DNA of 64,000 bases from Pyxidicoccus sp. MSG2 (GTDB taxonomy: Bacteria; Myxococcota; Myxococcia; Myxococcales; Myxococcaceae), in contig NZ_JAPNKC010000001.1 of assembly GCF_026626705.1 (NCBI RefSeq), forward strand, positions 12,773,001-12,837,000. The letters are read 5' to 3'. Within the stretch, counting starts at the first letter, position 1, and each line of letters starts with the position of its first letter. The notes beneath the pieces were generated by a model that was not told where the DNA came from, ran no database searches, and saw only the letters and a program-made list of their open reading frames with translations. Position numbers and translations under genes: made by a program. This document shows positions 55,235-63,621 of this stretch, one piece after another.

Positions 55235-55283
55235 ATATTGAACTCCAGTGAATCCAGTGAAGCGTGTGTTCTATGATCGAGGC

Positions 55284-56537
55284 ATGACCAGTCAGAATGC
55301 GCGCGCCGGAGATGCCGTGGCCGCCTTCAACCCGATGGCGCCGGACCAGATTGAGAACCCCTACGCGCTGTACGCGCGGCTGCGCCGCGAGAACCCCGTC
55401 TTCCACAGCCCCATGTTCGACCTGTGGGTCGTCACCCGCTACGAGGACATCGCCGAGGTGGAGCGGGACACGGCGCGCTTCTCCTCGGTGGGAGCGCTCG
55501 ATGCCCGGGCCGAGCCGCACCCCGAGGTGCGCAACATCCTCAAGCAGGGCTACTCGCAGTTCCTCTCCCTCGTGCAGAGCGACCCGCCGGACCACACGCG
55601 CATCCGCGCCGTGTTCGGCCGGGCCTTGAGCGCCCAGCGTATCGCCGCGATGGAGCCCTCCATCCGGGCGACGACGAACGGGCTCATCGACGGCTTCGTG
55701 GACGACGGCCAGGGGGACCTGGTGCAGCAGTTCGCGTATGCGCTGCCCGCCTTCGTCATCTGCGACCTGCTCGGCGTGCCGCGCGCGGACATGCAGCAGC
55801 TCAAGGGCTGGTCCGACGACAAGACGCTCTTGATGTCGGCGACGGCTCCCGTCGAGCAGCAGGTCGAGAGCGCGCACGGCTTCATCGCCATGGAGCGCTA
55901 CTTCAAGGAGAAGATCCACGAGCGCAGCCGCAAGCCGCGCGAGGACCTGCTCACGCTCCTGGTTCCGCAGTCGATGGGAGGCACCGCGCCATTGAGCGAG
56001 CAGGAGGCGGTCTGCAACGCCATGGACCTGTTCTCCGCCGGCCACGAGACGACGACGGGCCTCATCGGCAACGGCGTGTGGCTGCTCCTCAACTCCCCCG
56101 AGCAGCTCAAGGAGGTGAAGGAGGACCCGAGCCTGCTGCCCGGCGCCATCGAGGAGATTCTGCGCAAGGAGCCGCCCGTGCGCGGCTTCTTCCGCCAGGT
56201 GACGGCGGACACCACGCTCGGCGGTGTCTCGCTTCCGAAGGGCTCGCGGCTGTTCATCCTGTACGAGTCCGGCAACCACGACGAGACGCAGTTCCCCGAG
56301 CCGGACCGCTTCGACATCCGCCGCGCGGACGCGAAGAAGCACATGGCGTTCGGCAAGGGCATCCACTTCTGCGTGGGCGCCCAGCTCGCGAAGCTGGAGG
56401 GGCGGATTGCCTTCGAGCAGCTCCTGAAGCGGCTGCCCAACCTGCGGCTGCGCACGGATGAGCCCACGGTGCGACGGCCGTACCTCATGCTGCGCGGCTT
56501 CGAGCACCTGCCCATCGCCTGGGACGTGCCGGCGTAG
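55284..56537 (+). CDS. Cytochrome P450
   Basis: This 417-residue soluble bacterial P450 has the oxygen-binding I-helix motif AGHETTTG (252-259), the ExxR motif (EEILR) and the haem loop FGKGIHFCVGAQLAKLEG with the thiolate cysteine C363. It would hydroxylate a hydrophobic substrate using an external ferredoxin system, which is not encoded nearby. ATG 55284 follows GAGG; a start 12 codons upstream is possible. The divergent AAC(3) gene shares its promoter region. Confidence 0.95.
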   Translation: MTSQNARAGDAVAAFNPMAPDQIENPYALYARLRRENPVFHSPMFDLWVVTRYEDIAEVERDTARFSSVGALDARAEPHPEVRNILKQGYSQFLSLVQSDPPDHTRIRAVFGRALSAQRIAAMEPSIRATTNGLIDGFVDDGQGDLVQQFAYALPAFVICDLLGVPRADMQQLKGWSDDKTLLMSATAPVEQQVESAHGFIAMERYFKEKIHERSRKPREDLLTLLVPQSMGGTAPLSEQEAVCNAMDLFSAGHETTTGLIGNGVWLLLNSPEQLKEVKEDPSLLPGAIEEILRKEPPVRGFFRQVTADTTLGGVSLPKGSRLFILYESGNHDETQFPEPDRFDIRRADAKKHMAFGKGIHFCVGAQLAKLEGRIAFEQLLKRLPNLRLRTDEPTVRRPYLMLRGFEHLPIAWDVPA

Positions 56538-56577
56538 GGCTCTCGTCAGGGAGGCGGGCTCGAGGGTGTTGACCCGC

Positions 56578-56604
56578 GCCGCTTCGAGGAGGACTCGAAG
56601 CGGC
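56578..56604. terminator. Perfect 11-bp hairpin between convergent genes
   Basis: GCCGCTTCGAG (56578-56588) pairs fully with CTCGAAGCGGC (56594-56604) around GAGGA. It lies 40 bp after the P450 gene and 36 bp from the end of the minus-strand lipoprotein gene. Probable bidirectional terminator without a U-tract. Confidence 0.6.
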
Positions 56605-56639
56605 CGAGCCACGTCAGGCGCCTGGCCCGCGTGGCGGAA

Positions 56640-56999
56640 TCAGAGTGGCGAGCAGGTGGAACAGACGGGCTTGATGAGCTTCCAGCTCCCGCACGTCGTC
56701 GGGCCGTCGCCGCTGCGGGGCTGCTGGCAGCACCGCTCGTAGTACGTGCCCGGGAGCCCGAAGCCTCCTCCGGCAACCGTGGCGCAGTTGCCACAGGCCG
56801 CGGCCCACTCCGTCTTGCCCTGGATGAAGCCCACCACGGTGGTGGAGCTGGTGCACAGCGGCGTCGAGCCGATGCTCTGCTCGACTTCATCCACCGTCGA
56901 AGGCGTCTCTTCCTGGGTCTGGGGCTCCGCCGGACCACAGGCCGCGAGCGCCAGCACGAGGCACGAAGCCGACGCCCAGAGAATCATCTTCCGATGCAT
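56640..56999 (-). CDS. Small cysteine-rich lipoprotein
   Basis: This 119-residue protein has a strong lipobox (LALAACG, C21). The mature part has a Gln/Glu-rich spacer and then eight cysteines in patterns CGNC, CC and CSTC, which look like a disulfide-rich or metal-binding surface domain. No family is known to me. AGGAG lies before ATG 56999. The minus-strand open frame extends far upstream, but that part is antisense to the FIST gene. Confidence 0.78.
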   Translation of the reverse strand: MHRKMILWASASCLVLALAACGPAEPQTQEETPSTVDEVEQSIGSTPLCTSSTTVVGFIQGKTEWAAACGNCATVAGGGFGLPGTYYERCCQQPRSGDGPTTCGSWKLIKPVCSTCSPL

Positions 57000-57209
57000 G
57001 ACAGGTCTCCTGAATTGGGTGAGCCGGGCCCTGGACCGGGTGTCCTCAAGGTTCCGGTGTTTCTCACTATACCGAAAGGGAGGGGCCAACTGAGCCAGCG
57101 TGGGCCATGTCGCGTGGCCCCCGAGCGCTCTCACGATTGCGTGCCGTCCCGGAGGTGCGCACCTGCATGAAGAGGGGCGGTAGCCCCCGCGACGGGGGGA
57201 GCGGCAGGG
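57000..57209. other. Divergent intergenic region
   Basis: This 210-bp gap lies between the small lipoprotein and the FIST gene. It contains an AT-richer patch (57048-57075). No gene is seen. Confidence 0.3.
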
Positions 57210-58379
57210 ATGGGAGTGGCACTGCATATCGGGGCGAGCGACGCCCTGGAGCCACGCCTCGCGGCCGAGACGGCGGTGTGCCAGGCACTGGAAGGCACGG
57301 AGGCTCCCGTGCTGGCGCTCGCCTTCTGCACGGAGCAGTACGACTCCGCGGCCCTCGCGGGCGCGCTCGGACATGAGTTGGGGAGCATTCCGTGGGCCGG
57401 GTGCTCGGCGGCCGGTGTCATCGCGGGGGAGCGGCTGCTCTGGCAGGGCCTGGTGGTGGGAGTCCTCGCCGGGGACGTGCGGGCGGGCGTGGGCGTGGCG
57501 GGGCCGGTGAGCCGCAGTCCCTTCGAGTCCGGCCGCAAGGCGGTCGAGGACGCCCTCATGGGCTTCGGCGCTCCTCCTCCCGAGCGCCGCCGCGCGGTCA
57601 TCCTCCTGCCGGATGCCTTCAGCGCCAACGGGTGCCAGGTGGTGCAGGGCGCCACCCGCGAAGCCGGGGCCGGGGTGGCGTGGGCGGGCGGCGGCGCGGG
57701 CGACAACCTGCACTTCGTCCGGACCGCGCAGTTCGCCTTCGGCCACACCTACCAGGACCATGTGGTCGCGGTGGTGCTCGATGCCGACCGTCCCTTCGGC
57801 GTGGGGCTGCAACACGGATGGAGCCCCTATGGGCCTCCGGTACTGGCCACCCAGACGCGAGGCCCGGCCGTGGTGGACCTCGACTTCTCCAACGCCTTCG
57901 ACGTGTACCGCAGCACCGCCGCGCACCGGGGGGACGCGGTGGGCCGCGACGACTTCAGCCACTTCGCCATGCTGCACCCGCTGGGCATCCCCGGCGCCGC
58001 GGGCAGCTATGCCATCCGAGACCCCCTCTCCGTGGAGGCGGATGGCGCCCTGCGCTGCCTGGCCGAAGTCCCGGACGGCACCCTGCTGCGGGTGATGGAA
58101 GGCGACCCCGAGGCCCTCATCGCCGCCGCGGCCCTGGCGGCGACGGAGGCCCGGGAGCGTGTCGGCGGGGAGCCGGCCTTCGCGCTGGTGTTCGACTGCG
58201 TCTCGCGTGCCCGCGTGCTGGGCCCGCGCATCATGGAGGAGCTGCGCGCGATGCACACCGCGCTCGGAAGGAAGGTGCCGATGATGGGGTGCCTCACCTT
58301 CGGTGAGGTGGGCTCCTTCGGGGTGTCCCTGCCCCAGTTCCACAACAAGACCTCCGTCCTGCTGTCGCTGCCGGCATGA
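57210..58379 (+). CDS. FIST-domain sensory protein
   Basis: This 389-residue cytoplasmic protein has a FIST_N domain (about 25-230; WAGCSAAGVIAGE near 62-75) and a FIST_C domain (about 230-375; DFSHFAMLHPLGIPG, RVMEGDPEAL, GCLTFGEVG). FIST domains are thought to bind small ligands such as amino acids. The stop codon overlaps the ATG of the histidine kinase that follows (ATGA), so the pair is coupled, and the FIST protein is probably the ligand sensor for that kinase. Confidence 0.92.
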   Translation: MGVALHIGASDALEPRLAAETAVCQALEGTEAPVLALAFCTEQYDSAALAGALGHELGSIPWAGCSAAGVIAGERLLWQGLVVGVLAGDVRAGVGVAGPVSRSPFESGRKAVEDALMGFGAPPPERRRAVILLPDAFSANGCQVVQGATREAGAGVAWAGGGAGDNLHFVRTAQFAFGHTYQDHVVAVVLDADRPFGVGLQHGWSPYGPPVLATQTRGPAVVDLDFSNAFDVYRSTAAHRGDAVGRDDFSHFAMLHPLGIPGAAGSYAIRDPLSVEADGALRCLAEVPDGTLLRVMEGDPEALIAAAALAATEARERVGGEPAFALVFDCVSRARVLGPRIMEELRAMHTALGRKVPMMGCLTFGEVGSFGVSLPQFHNKTSVLLSLPA

Positions 58380-60646
58380 GTGTCAGTCCTTCCACGCCCT
58401 CCTTTCAATCCAACCCGGGAGTGACGCCCAGCCCTCCGGTGGACGCCGTCTCACTGGCGAGCGTGATGCAGGAGTTGACCCGGGCCGCGCTCGACCTGTT
58501 CGACGAGGCGGGCGACCTGGATGGCTTCCTGCAACACCTGGCCACCCGGCTGGGCTGCCTCGTCGTGCTGTGGCTGGAGCAGTCCCCCGAGGGAGCGGTG
58601 CGGCTGCTGGGCTCCGCGGGACTGTCGCGCACCTCGCGCGCGCTCCCCCTCACCGCGGGGACGGAGGCAGGGCCCGAGCGCGCCCAGGCGGTGGTGCACT
58701 GGGGAACCGTCGACCTTCCCTACCCCGAGCTCACGTCGTCCTCGCTGACCGTGTGGCAGTTCCCGTTCCAGCAGGTGCCCGAAGGAGGCCCGCCCTCGGA
58801 GTTCCTCCTCTTCTTCGAGTCCTCCCGGCCACTCTTCGCGCAGTACTTCGGGCTGGTGCAGCGCCTGCTCCGGGTGGCGGAGAAGGCGCTGGACCACCGG
58901 TGCCTCGATGCGCGCCTGAGACAGAGTGAGCACCGCCTCTCCGAGCAGATGCTGCTCCTCGAATACGAGAACGAGGCGACACTCGACGGCATCCTCATCG
59001 TCTCCGCCGACGGGCGCATCGTGAGCCGCAACCGGCGCCTGCTCGAGCTGTGGGGGCTGACCGAGGACGAGGTACGGCGCGGGGGCTCGGCCCGCACACT
59101 GCTGCTGGTGTCCGCCCAGCACGTGCGGGAGCCGGCGCGCTTCTTCAGCCTGGTGCGCCAGCTCCTGTCCGCGCCGGAGGGGACCTTCACCGACGCACTC
59201 ACCCTGCGGGACGGACGCAGCCTGGAGCTCTTCAGCGCTCCGCTGCTGGACCAGGCGGGCCGGGTCTTCGGCCGCGGCTGGTACTTCCGCGACATCACCC
59301 AACGCAAGCAGGCCGAGGCGGAGCGGGCGGGACTGCTCGCCCGTGAGCAGGCGGCACGGCAGGCCGCGGAGTCCGCGCGCCAGCGCTCGTCCTTCCTGGC
59401 CGAGGCCAGCCGCCGGCTCGCGAAGCACCTGGACGCGGACAAGGCGCTGGCGCAGGCGACCGGGCTGGCCGTTTCGTTCCTGTCCGACTGGTGCGTCGCC
59501 CTGCTGGTAGAGGACGACGCCCTCTGCGTGCGCGCCGCCGCCCACCACTCGCCCGAGGGCGTGGAGCAGGTGGGCGCCTTGAGACAGCTGCGGGTGCCGC
59601 TCGACGTGCCCGAAGGCGCGCCGCTGGTGGCGCATACGGGCCGCTCGGCGATGGTGCGCGGCGGAGACGCCACCGTGCCACCCCTGGCGCCCCTGGGCCT
59701 GCGGGAGCCCGCGCACCTGGAGCTGCTGCGCGAGCTGGGCGTCTCCGCGTGGCTGTCGGTGCCGCTGGTGGCGCGCGGACGGACGCTGGGGGTGCTGACG
59801 CTCGTCTCCACCGGGGAGACGCACCGCTGGAGCCCGGAGGACGTGGAGCTCGTCGAGAACCTCGCCGCGCGCGTGGCGCTCGCGGTGGACAATGCGCGCC
59901 TGTACGAAGAAGCGCAGCGGGCCATCCGCGTGCGCGACGAGTTCCTCTCGGTGGCGGCCCACGAGCTCTTCACGCCGTTGACGTCGCTCCGCCTCACCGT
60001 GCAGGGATTGCAGCGCGGTGCGGGGGTCGCTCCGACACCGCCCTCGCCGGCCGTGCTGAGAATCGTGGACCGGCAGACGCACAAGCTGATGCGCCTGGTG
60101 TCCGAGCTGCTCGACACCTCTCAGCTCCGGACGGGACGTCTCAACCTCCACCTCGAGGACGTGGACCTGGGCCAGGTGGTGCGGGATGTGGCCGAGCAAC
60201 TGGGTCCGGAGCTGGAGCGGACCGGCACGACGCTGACGCTGGACGTGGCCCAGGGCGTGGTGGGGCGGTGGGACCGGCTGCGGCTCGAGCAGGTGGTGCA
60301 GAACCTGCTCTCCAACGCGGCGAAGTACGGCGAACGCAAGCCCGTGGAGCTGCGGGTGATGGCGGATGAGGGGCTCGCCCGACTGGTGGTCATCGACCAT
60401 GGGATGGGCGTCCCACCCGAGGACCAGGAGCGCATCTTCGCCCCCTTCGAGCGTGCGACTTCCTCCCGCCACTTCGGGGGGCTGGGCCTGGGGCTGTACA
60501 TCGTCCAGCGCATCGTCCAGCAGCTCGGGGGGAACATCCGCCTGAGGAGCGAACCCGGCCAGGGCTCGACGTTCGAGGTCGAGCTGCCGCGAACGCCCCT
60601 TCCCTCCTCCCGCGCGCCGCCTTCCGAGGCGCGGCAACTCCACTGA
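58376..60646 (+). CDS. PAS-GAF sensor histidine kinase
   Basis: This 756-residue kinase has no membrane helix. After an N-terminal region that looks GAF-like (about 25-190), a PAS domain follows (about 195-310, IVSADGRIVSRNRRLLELWGL), then a GAF domain (about 340-510), HisKA and HATPase. The phosphorylated histidine is H529 in AAHELFTPLTSL; a phenylalanine replaces the common lysine or arginine after HEL. The N box (QNLLSNAAKYG), G1 (IDHGMGVPPED) and G2 (GGLGLGLYI) are intact. No response regulator is adjacent. It begins inside the stop of the FIST gene. Confidence 0.93.
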   Translation: MSVSPSTPSFQSNPGVTPSPPVDAVSLASVMQELTRAALDLFDEAGDLDGFLQHLATRLGCLVVLWLEQSPEGAVRLLGSAGLSRTSRALPLTAGTEAGPERAQAVVHWGTVDLPYPELTSSSLTVWQFPFQQVPEGGPPSEFLLFFESSRPLFAQYFGLVQRLLRVAEKALDHRCLDARLRQSEHRLSEQMLLLEYENEATLDGILIVSADGRIVSRNRRLLELWGLTEDEVRRGGSARTLLLVSAQHVREPARFFSLVRQLLSAPEGTFTDALTLRDGRSLELFSAPLLDQAGRVFGRGWYFRDITQRKQAEAERAGLLAREQAARQAAESARQRSSFLAEASRRLAKHLDADKALAQATGLAVSFLSDWCVALLVEDDALCVRAAAHHSPEGVEQVGALRQLRVPLDVPEGAPLVAHTGRSAMVRGGDATVPPLAPLGLREPAHLELLRELGVSAWLSVPLVARGRTLGVLTLVSTGETHRWSPEDVELVENLAARVALAVDNARLYEEAQRAIRVRDEFLSVAAHELFTPLTSLRLTVQGLQRGAGVAPTPPSPAVLRIVDRQTHKLMRLVSELLDTSQLRTGRLNLHLEDVDLGQVVRDVAEQLGPELERTGTTLTLDVAQGVVGRWDRLRLEQVVQNLLSNAAKYGERKPVELRVMADEGLARLVVIDHGMGVPPEDQERIFAPFERATSSRHFGGLGLGLYIVQRIVQQLGGNIRLRSEPGQGSTFEVELPRTPLPSSRAPPSEARQLH

Positions 60647-60696
60647 GGCAGAGGACGTTCACCTCCAACCCACGCCCGTACCGGGCGCACCCAATG

Positions 60697-60727
60697 AAAA
60701 GGGCCGGAGGCTTTCGCACCCGGCCCT
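60697..60727 (-). terminator. Rho-independent-type terminator of the graspetide precursor gene
   Basis: Read on the minus strand, AGGGCCGG and CCGGCCCT form an 8-bp stem (60700-60727) with a 12-base loop, directly followed by TTTT. It lies 25 bp after the stop codon of the repeat peptide gene and is the best classical terminator in the window, which supports that strand as the transcribed one. Confidence 0.7.
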
Positions 60728-60751
60728 CGGACAGCTGAATCGACGGTAGCG

Positions 60752-61597
60752 CTACTTCGCGCCGCCCTCTTCGCCCACGGCGAGCGTGGTCACGGGGCCC
60801 GTCGGCTTGGTGCCGCCCTCTTCGCCCACGGCCAGGGTGGTCGTCGGAGGAGGCTTGATGCCGCCCTCCTCACCGAGCGCCTTGGTGGTCATCGGAGGAG
60901 GCTTGATGCCGCCTTCCTCACCGACGGCCAGCGTCGTCGCGGGGCCGGAGGGCGGAGGAGGCTTGATGCCGCCCTCCTCACCGAGCGCCTTGGTGGTCAT
61001 CGGGGGAGGCTTGATGCCGCCCTCCTCACCGACGGCCAGCGTCGTCGCGGGGCCGGAGGGCGGAGGAGGCTTGATGCCGCCCTCCTCACCGAGCGCCTTG
61101 GTGGTCATCGGGGGAGGCTTGATGCCGCCCTCCTCGCCCACGGCCATGGTGGTCGTCGGAGGGGGCTTGGTGCCACCCTCCTCGCCCACGGCCATGGTGG
61201 TCGTCGGAGGAGGCTTGATGCCGCCCTCCTCACCGAGCGACTTCGTGGTCATCGGAGGAGGCTTGATGCCACCCTCTTCACCGACGGCCAGCGTCGTCGC
61301 GGGGCCGGGGGGCGGCTTGGTGCCGCCCTCCTCACCGAGCGACTTCGTGGTCATCGGAGGAGGCTTGATGCCGCCCTCCTCACCGACGGCCAGTGTCGTC
61401 GCGGGGCCGGGGGGCTTGCTGCCACCCTCCTCACCGAGCGACTTCGTGGTCATCGGAGGAGGCTTGATGCCGCCCTCTTCACCAACGGCCAGCGTCGTCG
61501 CGGGGCCAGGCGGCCTGGTGCCGCCCTCCGGCCGGGTCGGCGGCCTGGGCGTCTCGTACTTGATGAACGGCGGTGCCTTCGGAATCTTGGTGGTCAC
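60752..61597 (-). CDS. Multicore graspetide (plesiocin-type) precursor peptide
   Basis: This 281-residue repetitive peptide looks like a RiPP precursor for omega-ester crosslinking. A leader of about 33 residues (KIPKAPPFIKYETPRP) is followed by fifteen copies of TTxxxxEE: TTLAVGEE, TTKSLGEE, TTKALGEE or TTMAVGEE. They lie from T34 to E277, on average 17 residues apart. Linkers are rich in GGIKPPP, GGTKPPP or PSGPA. TTxxxxEE is the core motif of plesiocin, whose Thr and Glu side chains are joined by an ATP-grasp ligase; one such ligase gene lies divergently 104 bp away. The start GTG 61597 has AGGGAGAG upstream. The opposite-strand reading (GGGLMPPSSP repeats) is an artefact. Confidence 0.85.
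   Translation of the reverse strand: MTTKIPKAPPFIKYETPRPPTRPEGGTRPPGPATTLAVGEEGGIKPPPMTTKSLGEEGGSKPPGPATTLAVGEEGGIKPPPMTTKSLGEEGGTKPPPGPATTLAVGEEGGIKPPPMTTKSLGEEGGIKPPPTTTMAVGEEGGTKPPPTTTMAVGEEGGIKPPPMTTKALGEEGGIKPPPPSGPATTLAVGEEGGIKPPPMTTKALGEEGGIKPPPPSGPATTLAVGEEGGIKPPPMTTKALGEEGGIKPPPTTTLAVGEEGGTKPTGPVTTLAVGEEGGAK
60786..61500. repeat. Direct repeats encoding the graspetide cores
   Basis: Units of about 45-60 bp recur fifteen times, with long identical stretches such as the segment coding for GEEGGIKPPP. Larger units pairing an LAVGEE core with a K(S/A)LGEE core repeat several times, so the array probably grew by duplication of two-core blocks. Confidence 0.85.
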
Positions 61598-61700
61598 GAA
61601 ACTCTCCCTGCGAACACCAGGATTGTCGGCAGTAGGTATTTGTAGTTGCCTGAGAAAAAGCGATACCTCCGGAAACACCCGGTGGCCTGGGGGCACGGCC
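61598..61700. promoter_or_regulatory. Divergent promoter of the graspetide precursor and ligase
   Basis: This 103-bp gap separates the two starts and is AT-richer than its flanks. It carries the spaced dyad AGGTAT (61634-61639) / ATACCT (61663-61668). A poly-A stretch (61654-61658) lies between the arms. It could hold two back-to-back promoters under one regulator. Confidence 0.45.
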
Positions 61701-62651
61701 TTGAGAATTGGCATCTTCGGTGACGGCAATGACCCGCAGTGCGCGGCGGTGGCGCACGAGGCGGGAGTCCTCGGAGCGGAAGCGGTCATCATCGACAGTG
61801 AGGCCCTGGAGCACGGCTGGCCGCTGTCCATGAAGGACGACGAGACCTGGTACCTCGGCCAGCGCGTGGACGACCTGCGGGGCTTCTACCTGCGCTTCGT
61901 CCCCGCCCCCTTCGTCCCGGCCCTGGAACAGAACGGAGAGCTGGTGCTCTACCAGGACTGGCACGACCACTTCATGCAGACGCGCGAGCGCGCCTCCTAC
62001 TTCGTGGCGTGGCTGCTGAAGCTGGCCCACCAGGGCGCCACGCTGGTCAACGGCCCGCACGCCGCCAGCGTCATGCAATACAAGCCCTTCCAGCTCCACG
62101 CGCTGCGCAGCCTCGGTGCGCGGGTGCCGCGCACGCTCATCTCCAATGACCCGGCCGCCATCCGCGCCTTCCACGCCGAGGTGAAGGACGTCATCTTCAA
62201 GCCCATCATGGGCGGCGCCATCACGCGCACGCTCGATGCCGAGGCGCTGGAGCGACTGGAGGCCGTCACGGCCTCGCCCGTCATCTTCCAGGAGCGGGTG
62301 CGTGGCGACGACCTGCGCATCATGCTCGTGGGTGACGAGGTCGTCTCGTGCGTGGCCATCGAGACGCCCGAGCAGCACCTCGACTTCCGGGCGGACCCCA
62401 TCTACAGCGAGGGCCAGGCCAGCTACCGCGAGGTGCCGCTGCCCGAGCCGGTGAAGGACTTCTGCCGCCGGGCGGCGCGCGCGTGCGGCCTCACGTTCGC
62501 CGGCATCGACATCAAGCACCACGGAGACGACTACGTCTTCCTGGAGCTCAACAGCTCGCCCATCTACCTCGACGTGGAGGTGAAGCTCGGGCACCCCATC
62601 AGCCGCACCATCGCGAAGGCCGTGGTGGAAGGTGCGCGCACCGCGCGGTAG
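61701..62651 (+). CDS. ATP-grasp ligase for graspetide maturation
   Basis: This 316-residue cytoplasmic enzyme has an ATP-grasp fold of the RimK/MvdD-like type. ATP/Mg motifs are visible: VIFKPIMGG with K167, FQERVRGDDLRIMLVG, and GIDIKHHGDDYVFLELNSSP with D270, E282 and N284. Its size fits graspetide ligases that form ester (or amide) links between Thr/Ser/Lys and Glu/Asp side chains by acyl-phosphate chemistry. I chose TTG 61701 (LRIGIFGDG) with GGGGG upstream; the longer open frame continues into sequence antisense to the precursor. The adjacent TTxxxxEE peptide is the obvious substrate. Confidence 0.88.
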   Translation: MRIGIFGDGNDPQCAAVAHEAGVLGAEAVIIDSEALEHGWPLSMKDDETWYLGQRVDDLRGFYLRFVPAPFVPALEQNGELVLYQDWHDHFMQTRERASYFVAWLLKLAHQGATLVNGPHAASVMQYKPFQLHALRSLGARVPRTLISNDPAAIRAFHAEVKDVIFKPIMGGAITRTLDAEALERLEAVTASPVIFQERVRGDDLRIMLVGDEVVSCVAIETPEQHLDFRADPIYSEGQASYREVPLPEPVKDFCRRAARACGLTFAGIDIKHHGDDYVFLELNSSPIYLDVEVKLGHPISRTIAKAVVEGARTAR

Positions 62652-62736
62652 TGACCACTCCCCCCCATCGCCGAAGTCGACGATATGCGACTCGAAGGGC
62701 GTACCGTTCTCGTAGAAGCGGCAGCGAGGCAAGAGC

Positions 62737-63621
62737 ATGGACCTGGAAGAGCTGCGGGCCTTTCTCGATGTCGCGGAGACGGGCTCGTTCCTGGCCGCCG
62801 CGGACTCCCTGGGAGTGTCGCGCACGACGTTGAGACGCCGCGTCGAGGCGCTCGAGGCTCGCGCCGGCGTACCGCTCCTCAAGAGCACCCGGTCGGGCAT
62901 CGTCCTGACAGAGGCCGGCACGGTGCTCGCCCAGCGCGGGCGCATCATGATGCAGGAGACGAGCGCGTTGCTGGCGTCCATCCGCGAGGTGGGCCAGGAC
63001 CCGACGGGCCTGCTGCGGGTGGTGCTGCCCGTCGGGCTCCCGCCGCACCTGCTCACCCCGCTCTTCGGCGCGCTGCGCACCACGTACCCGCAACTGCGCG
63101 TCCACGCCCGCTTCAGCAACGACCCGCTGGGCGAGCCCCTGGACGACGTGGACATGGCGGTCCACTTCGGCGAGGCGCTGCCCAGGGGGCCGTGGCTGTC
63201 GCACGAGGTGCTGCGGGTCCGTGAAGGGTTGATTGCCAGCACGGAGTACCTGGAGCACCGGGGCGTCCCCCGCTCCATGGAGGACCTGAAGGGCCATGAG
63301 CTCTTCTCGTGGGAGGCACCGGGAGAGGACGCTCGCCTCTGGCCCTCGCTCCGTGGAGCGCTGTTCAGCGTGGAGCCAGCCCTCATCACCCCGGACATCC
63401 ACTTCATCCGCTCATGCTGCATCGCCGGGCAGGGCATCGGCCTGGTCCCCAGCGTGGAGCTGGCCGACCCCGGCGGTGCCGGAGAGGTGCTGGTGCCCGT
63501 TCTGCCCGACGTCGTGGGGCGAGAGCGCCCGCTCCGCATCAGCGTGCCCGAGGCGCTCTCCGAGATTCCCAAGGTCAAGCACGTGCTCTCGCACATCCGA
63601 GGCTTTCTCGACCCACTGTGA
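62737..63621 (+). CDS. LysR family transcriptional regulator
   Basis: This 294-residue regulator has the LysR winged helix at residues 1-60 (LRAFLDVAETGSFLAAADSLGVSRTTLRRRVEALEARAG). A type 2 periplasmic-binding-like ligand domain follows (about 90-290). It lies 85 bp after the ATP-grasp gene on the same strand and may be transcribed with it. It is a candidate regulator of the graspetide locus, though LysR genes more often control divergent neighbours. Confidence 0.92.
   Translation: MDLEELRAFLDVAETGSFLAAADSLGVSRTTLRRRVEALEARAGVPLLKSTRSGIVLTEAGTVLAQRGRIMMQETSALLASIREVGQDPTGLLRVVLPVGLPPHLLTPLFGALRTTYPQLRVHARFSNDPLGEPLDDVDMAVHFGEALPRGPWLSHEVLRVREGLIASTEYLEHRGVPRSMEDLKGHELFSWEAPGEDARLWPSLRGALFSVEPALITPDIHFIRSCCIAGQGIGLVPSVELADPGGAGEVLVPVLPDVVGRERPLRISVPEALSEIPKVKHVLSHIRGFLDPL

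Follow-up and report, generated by a model that had tools for sequence, protein, structure and literature searches.

How many cyclised motifs can a single ATP-grasp ligase serve on one precursor, and what would such a product do? The question is raised by two divergent genes in the window (the whole stretch of 64,000 nucleotides of DNA from the soil myxobacterium Pyxidicoccus sp. MSG2 that we analysed), one encoding a protein with fifteen TTxxxxEE cores and the other an ATP-grasp ligase. We regard it as probable that the two genes make up a group 2-like (plesiocin-like) graspetide system, in which up to 30 omega-ester links would turn the precursor into a multivalent protease inhibitor. The features involved are the following.

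60752..61597, minus strand: precursor gene, GTG start at 61597, 281 residues, 15 TTxxxxEE cores
61499..61597, minus strand: leader, residues 1-33, from the translation and the alignment to orthologous leaders
61556..61570, minus strand: PFIKY leader recognition motif, residues 10-14, from the leader alignment
60767..61498, minus strand: core array, 15 cores with GG-x-K-P/G-rich linkers between them (cores from the translation)
61475..61498, minus strand: core 1, TTLAVGEE
61427..61450, minus strand: core 2, TTKSLGEE
61376..61399, minus strand: core 3, TTLAVGEE
61328..61351, minus strand: core 4, TTKSLGEE
61274..61297, minus strand: core 5, TTLAVGEE
61226..61249, minus strand: core 6, TTKSLGEE
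61178..61201, minus strand: core 7, TTMAVGEE
61130..61153, minus strand: core 8, TTMAVGEE
61082..61105, minus strand: core 9, TTKALGEE
61022..61045, minus strand: core 10, TTLAVGEE
60974..60997, minus strand: core 11, TTKALGEE
60914..60937, minus strand: core 12, TTLAVGEE
60866..60889, minus strand: core 13, TTKALGEE
60818..60841, minus strand: core 14, TTLAVGEE
60767..60790, minus strand: core 15, TTLAVGEE
61598..61700, no strand: divergent intergenic region of 103 bp, partly conserved in three near relatives (block TTGTAGTTGCCTG)
61701..62651, plus strand: ATP-grasp macrocyclase gene, TTG start, 316 residues, from model, structure, fold and tree comparisons
62316..62318, plus strand: codon of ligase R206, aligned to PsnB Arg213, a residue kept in all 18 orthologues

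The preliminary description had reported a 281-residue ORF with 15 exact TTxxxxEE matches next to an ATP-grasp gene. Translating the minus strand (61597 to 60752) bore this out, as well as its assignment of the cores to the group 2 type (exact in 15/15). The cores (seven TTLAVGEE, three TTKSLGEE, three TTKALGEE, and two TTMAVGEE) are spaced 16-20 residues apart, and each is followed by GG-x-K and then by a Pro-rich linker, which core 15 lacks. The GTG start has a GGGAG-type ribosome site just upstream and lines up with the ATG starts of the orthologues, and the GC content of the three codon positions (0.66/0.63/0.85) matches the expectation for true coding in this frame. A plus-strand ORF (60786-62651) was rejected as one long protein because it reads antisense through the core array. 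Sequence searches of the PDB with the 281-residue precursor matched no chain.

The array carries the mark of selection. Between its repeats, the T, T, G, E, and E codons differ synonymously but never in residue (pS 0.556, pN 0.000), so that purifying selection acts on these positions; at loop positions 3-5, pN is 0.312. Nine other arrays follow the same pattern, with pN of 0.000 to 0.102 in the conserved columns. A scan of 195 genomes for the DNA pattern encoding TTxxxGEEG gave 17 matches in the precursor's genome, all on the reverse strand, versus 2 and 2 matches for the reversed control. The fifteen-core array is not a chance product, because its 15 exact motifs stand in register, its conserved positions vary only synonymously, and the pairing of precursor and ligase is repeated in orthologous loci. 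Recent homogenisation of the cores is not supported, since the 24-nt cores are no more similar within genomes than between near relatives.

What kind of enzyme is the ligase? In Pfam, it matches only RimK, ATP-grasp_3, and GSH-S_ATP. Its top NCBIfam model is TIGR04187 (ATP-grasp ribosomal peptide maturase), which it matches with 113 bits, short of the cut-off of 350; the microviridin maturases follow, and RimK and glutathione synthase come lower. It reaches the cut-off of none of the NCBIfam maturase models. In all 18 orthologues, the same models come out on top, the best E-value of the graspetide maturases lying ahead of those of RimK and glutathione synthase. The preliminary description had proposed a comparison with PsnB and the microviridin ligases, and among solved structures the sequence search places PsnB first (E 3.4e-43, 35% identity; runner-up 9.7e-21). 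A fold search with the AlphaFold model (mean pLDDT 82.9) also gives PsnB as the best match (E 1.7e-26), and every PsnB chain among the matches listed precedes MdnC, AMdnB, CdnC, PruB, MdnB, and RimK. Neither among models nor among structures was RimK or glutathione synthase the best match, graspetide maturases scoring higher, and the earlier view of the enzyme as a graspetide macrocyclase rather than a glutathione synthase or RimK therefore stands. As Song et al. are said to have reported in 2021, the active-site Arg213 of PsnB recognises the ring-forming acidic residue. Its counterpart here is R206, and K167, E282, and N284 are also identical to the aligned PsnB residues (PsnB numbering is the chain number minus a 20-residue tag, a length that we assumed).

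The enzyme can safely be called a divergent graspetide ligase. In the tree, it groups with myxobacterial relatives and with two from cyanobacterial MAGs, in a clade apart from PsnB and its orthologues. An AU test speaks mildly against uniting PsnB with this clade to the exclusion of the microviridin ligases (p 0.026, with partial microviridin rows and a long outgroup branch). Orthology with PsnB was rejected: the clades are separate, and the genome's PsnB orthologue is another protein, encoded elsewhere in the genome (L002, G000:C1:4876052-4879966) and 51% identical to PsnB, unlike the 15-core ligase with its 35%.

In the leaders of orthologous precursors, F[ITV]x[YF]x[LMT]P recurs, and PFIKY is consistent with Phhx(1,2)h, the motif published for graspetide leaders (PMC8939145). 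What characterises a graspetide, a linked precursor with such a leader motif and a core rich in donors and acceptors, is thus found at this locus. A hydrophobic export signal is absent from residues 1-33. Between the two genes, the blocks GGATTGTCG and TTGTAGTTGCCTG are identical across four related genomes, and they are a possible shared promoter or operator.

We found close orthologues of the ligase (about 60% identity or more) in 26 of the 195 Myxococcota genomes, and a TTxxxxEE precursor is paired with it in 25 of these 26 (one copy frameshifted), a count that includes one fragmented assembly where the precursor lies on the contig with the N-terminal piece of the ligase. The frameshifted copy (L034/L047) is decaying: an in-frame TGA interrupts the ligase, and in the precursor the leader is out of frame with the cores (TTMALGEE, TTLAVGKE). 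No precursor was found for a second ligase copy present in one genome (L045). The pairing holds across genera and extends to the cyanobacterial-MAG relatives, whose precursors have 2 and 4 cores. Exact cores number between 1 and 17, or up to 18 under a relaxed motif. Archangium species have a single core, and several other lineages, Hyalangium among them, have one or two. There are 12-15 exact cores in the Pyxidicoccus/Myxococcus relatives, and complete precursors of metagenome-assembled lineages have 9-17 (at most 18 when the motif is relaxed). Given these differences across lineages with orthologous ligases, the number of cores has shifted on more than one occasion. The initial impression of unusually many cores is right when 15 is set against the 4 of plesiocin and the 5 of corallotide, but fifteen is not unique, because the relatives run up to 17.

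The conserved unit consists of the two genes. Beyond synteny among the nearest relatives, no other gene is conserved around the pair, nor does a gene for a transporter, peptidase, or protease accompany it consistently. In the window, its neighbours (55248-63621) encode a cytochrome P450, a FIST-domain protein, a PAS/GAF histidine kinase, and a LysR regulator, none of them conserved around orthologues beyond the nearest relatives. In a Cyanobium MAG (L055:4994-5923, minus strand), two TTxxxxEE cores continue in frame into a C-terminal part with a weak match to RTX calcium-binding repeats (19.9 bits, under the Pfam cut-off of 23), which hints that the modified protein might leave the cell by type I secretion. 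A distant relative (L037:2478-3065, minus strand) has a variant repeat, VTTLPAGGAEEAGGCAPGGTG, with a longer spacing from TT to EE and then a Cys.

A feature that the preliminary description had not mentioned is that the array alternates between two types of core, TT-K-[AS]-L-GEE and TT-[LM]-A-V-GEE, residue 3 reading L K L K L K M M K L K L K L L. The 178 cores that we compared show hardly any variation at positions 1, 2, 4, 6, 7, and 8; they differ most at position 3 (L, M, K, Q, A, R, E; 2.1 bits) and next at position 5. The two are coupled: L5 occurs in 35 of 41 cores with K3 versus 22 of 137 with other residues at position 3 (Fisher p 4e-16, cores within an array being non-independent). 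Position 3 is likely to be the residue setting the specificity of an inhibitor loop. The alternation itself could be a by-product of the duplication of the array.

How might the system work? The ligase would bind the short leader through the PFIKY motif and use ATP to phosphorylate Glu side chains of each core, and the neighbouring Thr hydroxyls would then attack to form two omega-esters per core, the number reported per repeat of plesiocin (PMC12291112). The product would string together as many as fifteen bicyclic hairpins with Gly/Pro-rich linkers between them, and full closure would release as many as 30 water molecules (540.3 Da), taking the calculated monoisotopic mass from 27570.23 to 27029.91 with the initiator Met kept. 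What the analysis shows directly are the cores and the selection on them, the leader motif, the family of the ligase, and the conserved pairing; the ester chemistry, how far it goes, and the function are inferred. A processive product, as once suggested, is not supported because PsnB is reported to act distributively (PMC5934393). The inner loop of a hairpin would be either basic (TTK[AS]LGEE) or hydrophobic (TT[LM]AVGEE), and the chain would most likely be a multi-headed protease inhibitor with two kinds of specificity. According to the 2026 RODEO survey of graspetides (PMC13097080), plesiocin inhibits serine proteases, and does so more potently the more of its motifs are cyclised, and the title of a work that it cites describes an engineered bifunctional plesiocin. 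Taken alone, the inhibitor role seems to us slightly better than an even bet. More tentatively, and with chances a little short of even, the product may be a bispecific polyvalent inhibitor, with hairpins directed at trypsin-like proteases and others directed at chymotrypsin- or elastase-like ones, interleaved up to fifteen-fold and evolving by gain, loss, and shuffling of repeats under one ligase.

Three other explanations have to be weighed against this. The repeat protein might have nothing to do with graspetide chemistry and be a low-complexity protein encoded next to an amino-acid ligase of the RimK kind, as the Pfam matches and the curated maturase cut-offs that the ligase does not reach would allow. 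We find this very improbable in view of PsnB being the nearest structure in both sequence and fold, the retention of its Arg213, the purifying selection on the core residues, and a pair kept together across genera and in the cyanobacterial-MAG relatives. A less radical alternative accepts the chemistry but supposes that modification is partial, e.g., one ester per core or only the cores near the leader, leaving the real product far below 30 links. There are precedents: PsnB and AMdnC are distributive, AMdnC leaves partly modified intermediates and prefers N-terminal cores (PMC5934393), and the group 2 graspetide Gra-5, made in E. coli, had one dehydration despite at least two conserved donors and two acceptors (PMC9576775). 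Yet the T, T, G, E, and E residues are equally conserved in 15/15 cores, with no decay towards the C-terminus, which argues for the use of every core, and we regard partial modification as rather unlikely.

The remaining alternative concerns function. Esters could form in a structural or matrix protein, a hairpin-stiffened rod rich in Gly, Pro, and Lys in spore, slime, or cell-surface material. Its composition (Pro 20%, Gly 19%) and the regularity of its GGxKPPP linkers fit such a role, neither a protease nor a transporter is conserved nearby, and the 2026 survey ascribes collagen-like properties and no antibacterial activity to corallotide, a five-repeat product of Corallococcus (PMC13097080). 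On the other hand, relatives in the same clade have one or two cores on precursors of 52-72 residues, which are therefore too short for a fibre, and the variability of loop position 3 (2.1 bits) within a fixed frame is what inhibitor loops would show. A structural role is, in our judgement, unlikely.

In the literature that we covered, characterised multicore graspetides have three (thuringinin, AMdnA), four (plesiocin), or five repeats (corallotide). The closest to the present system is plesiocin (PsnA2-PsnB, group 2, Plesiocystis pacifica), which also combines tandem TTxxxxEE cores with one ATP-grasp ligase, and whose PsnB is the best sequence and fold match and shares the Arg213 equivalent. 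It differs in having four cores and GDPSAG linkers, where the Pyxidicoccus precursor has fifteen cores of two alternating types and GGxKPPP linkers. An NHLM-type transporter, frequent but not defining in group 2 loci (PMC13097080), is not conserved beside the pair. Corallotide (group 15, Corallococcus exercitus) is likewise myxobacterial with a large multi-repeat precursor, but its five KxxxD motifs give lactams that an oxygenase later hydroxylates, and it needs partner proteins, none of which was seen at the 15-core locus. Like the latter, Anabaena AMdnA has several cores on one precursor served by one ATP-grasp ligase (the lactone-forming AMdnC); its three cores are of the microviridin type, with another leader motif and ring pattern. 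The three repeats of thuringinin carry another motif. Graspetide groups with long repetitive precursors were already reported in the 2026 survey, where the uncharacterised groups 34 and 35 have repeating linkage motifs and group 35 often consists only of synthetase and precursor (PMC13097080), as does our locus. It may or may not belong to one of these two groups.

If our reading is correct, this would be the graspetide with the most cores of any characterised, as far as the literature that we covered shows: a protein of 27 kDa carrying as many as 30 esters, compared with the 4 cores of plesiocin. The orthologous ligases that serve 1, 2, or 9-17 cores in the relatives would then provide a natural series in which core number can be related to the order and completeness of modification and to inhibitor strength, a question for which the multi-core studies that we covered relied on engineered substrates. 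The interleaving of two core types would look like nature's version of the engineered bifunctional plesiocin.

The same genome encodes a second system, of the PsnB type. Upstream of the PsnB orthologue (L002), a short ORF has a single TTMMVGEE core near its end, with no chain matched in PDB sequence searches, and an M43-family metalloprotease adjoins the two. Similar sets recur in related genomes (L030-L033; the M43 assignment was tested for L002 and L030). The one-core precursor and the metalloprotease are a possible protease-inhibitor pair. Away from the clade's ligase, three TTxxxGEEG-encoding sites, 12-13 codons apart, lie at G005:C240:133295-133398 and at G007:C1:3820934-3821034, and these clusters are probably another group 2-like precursor.
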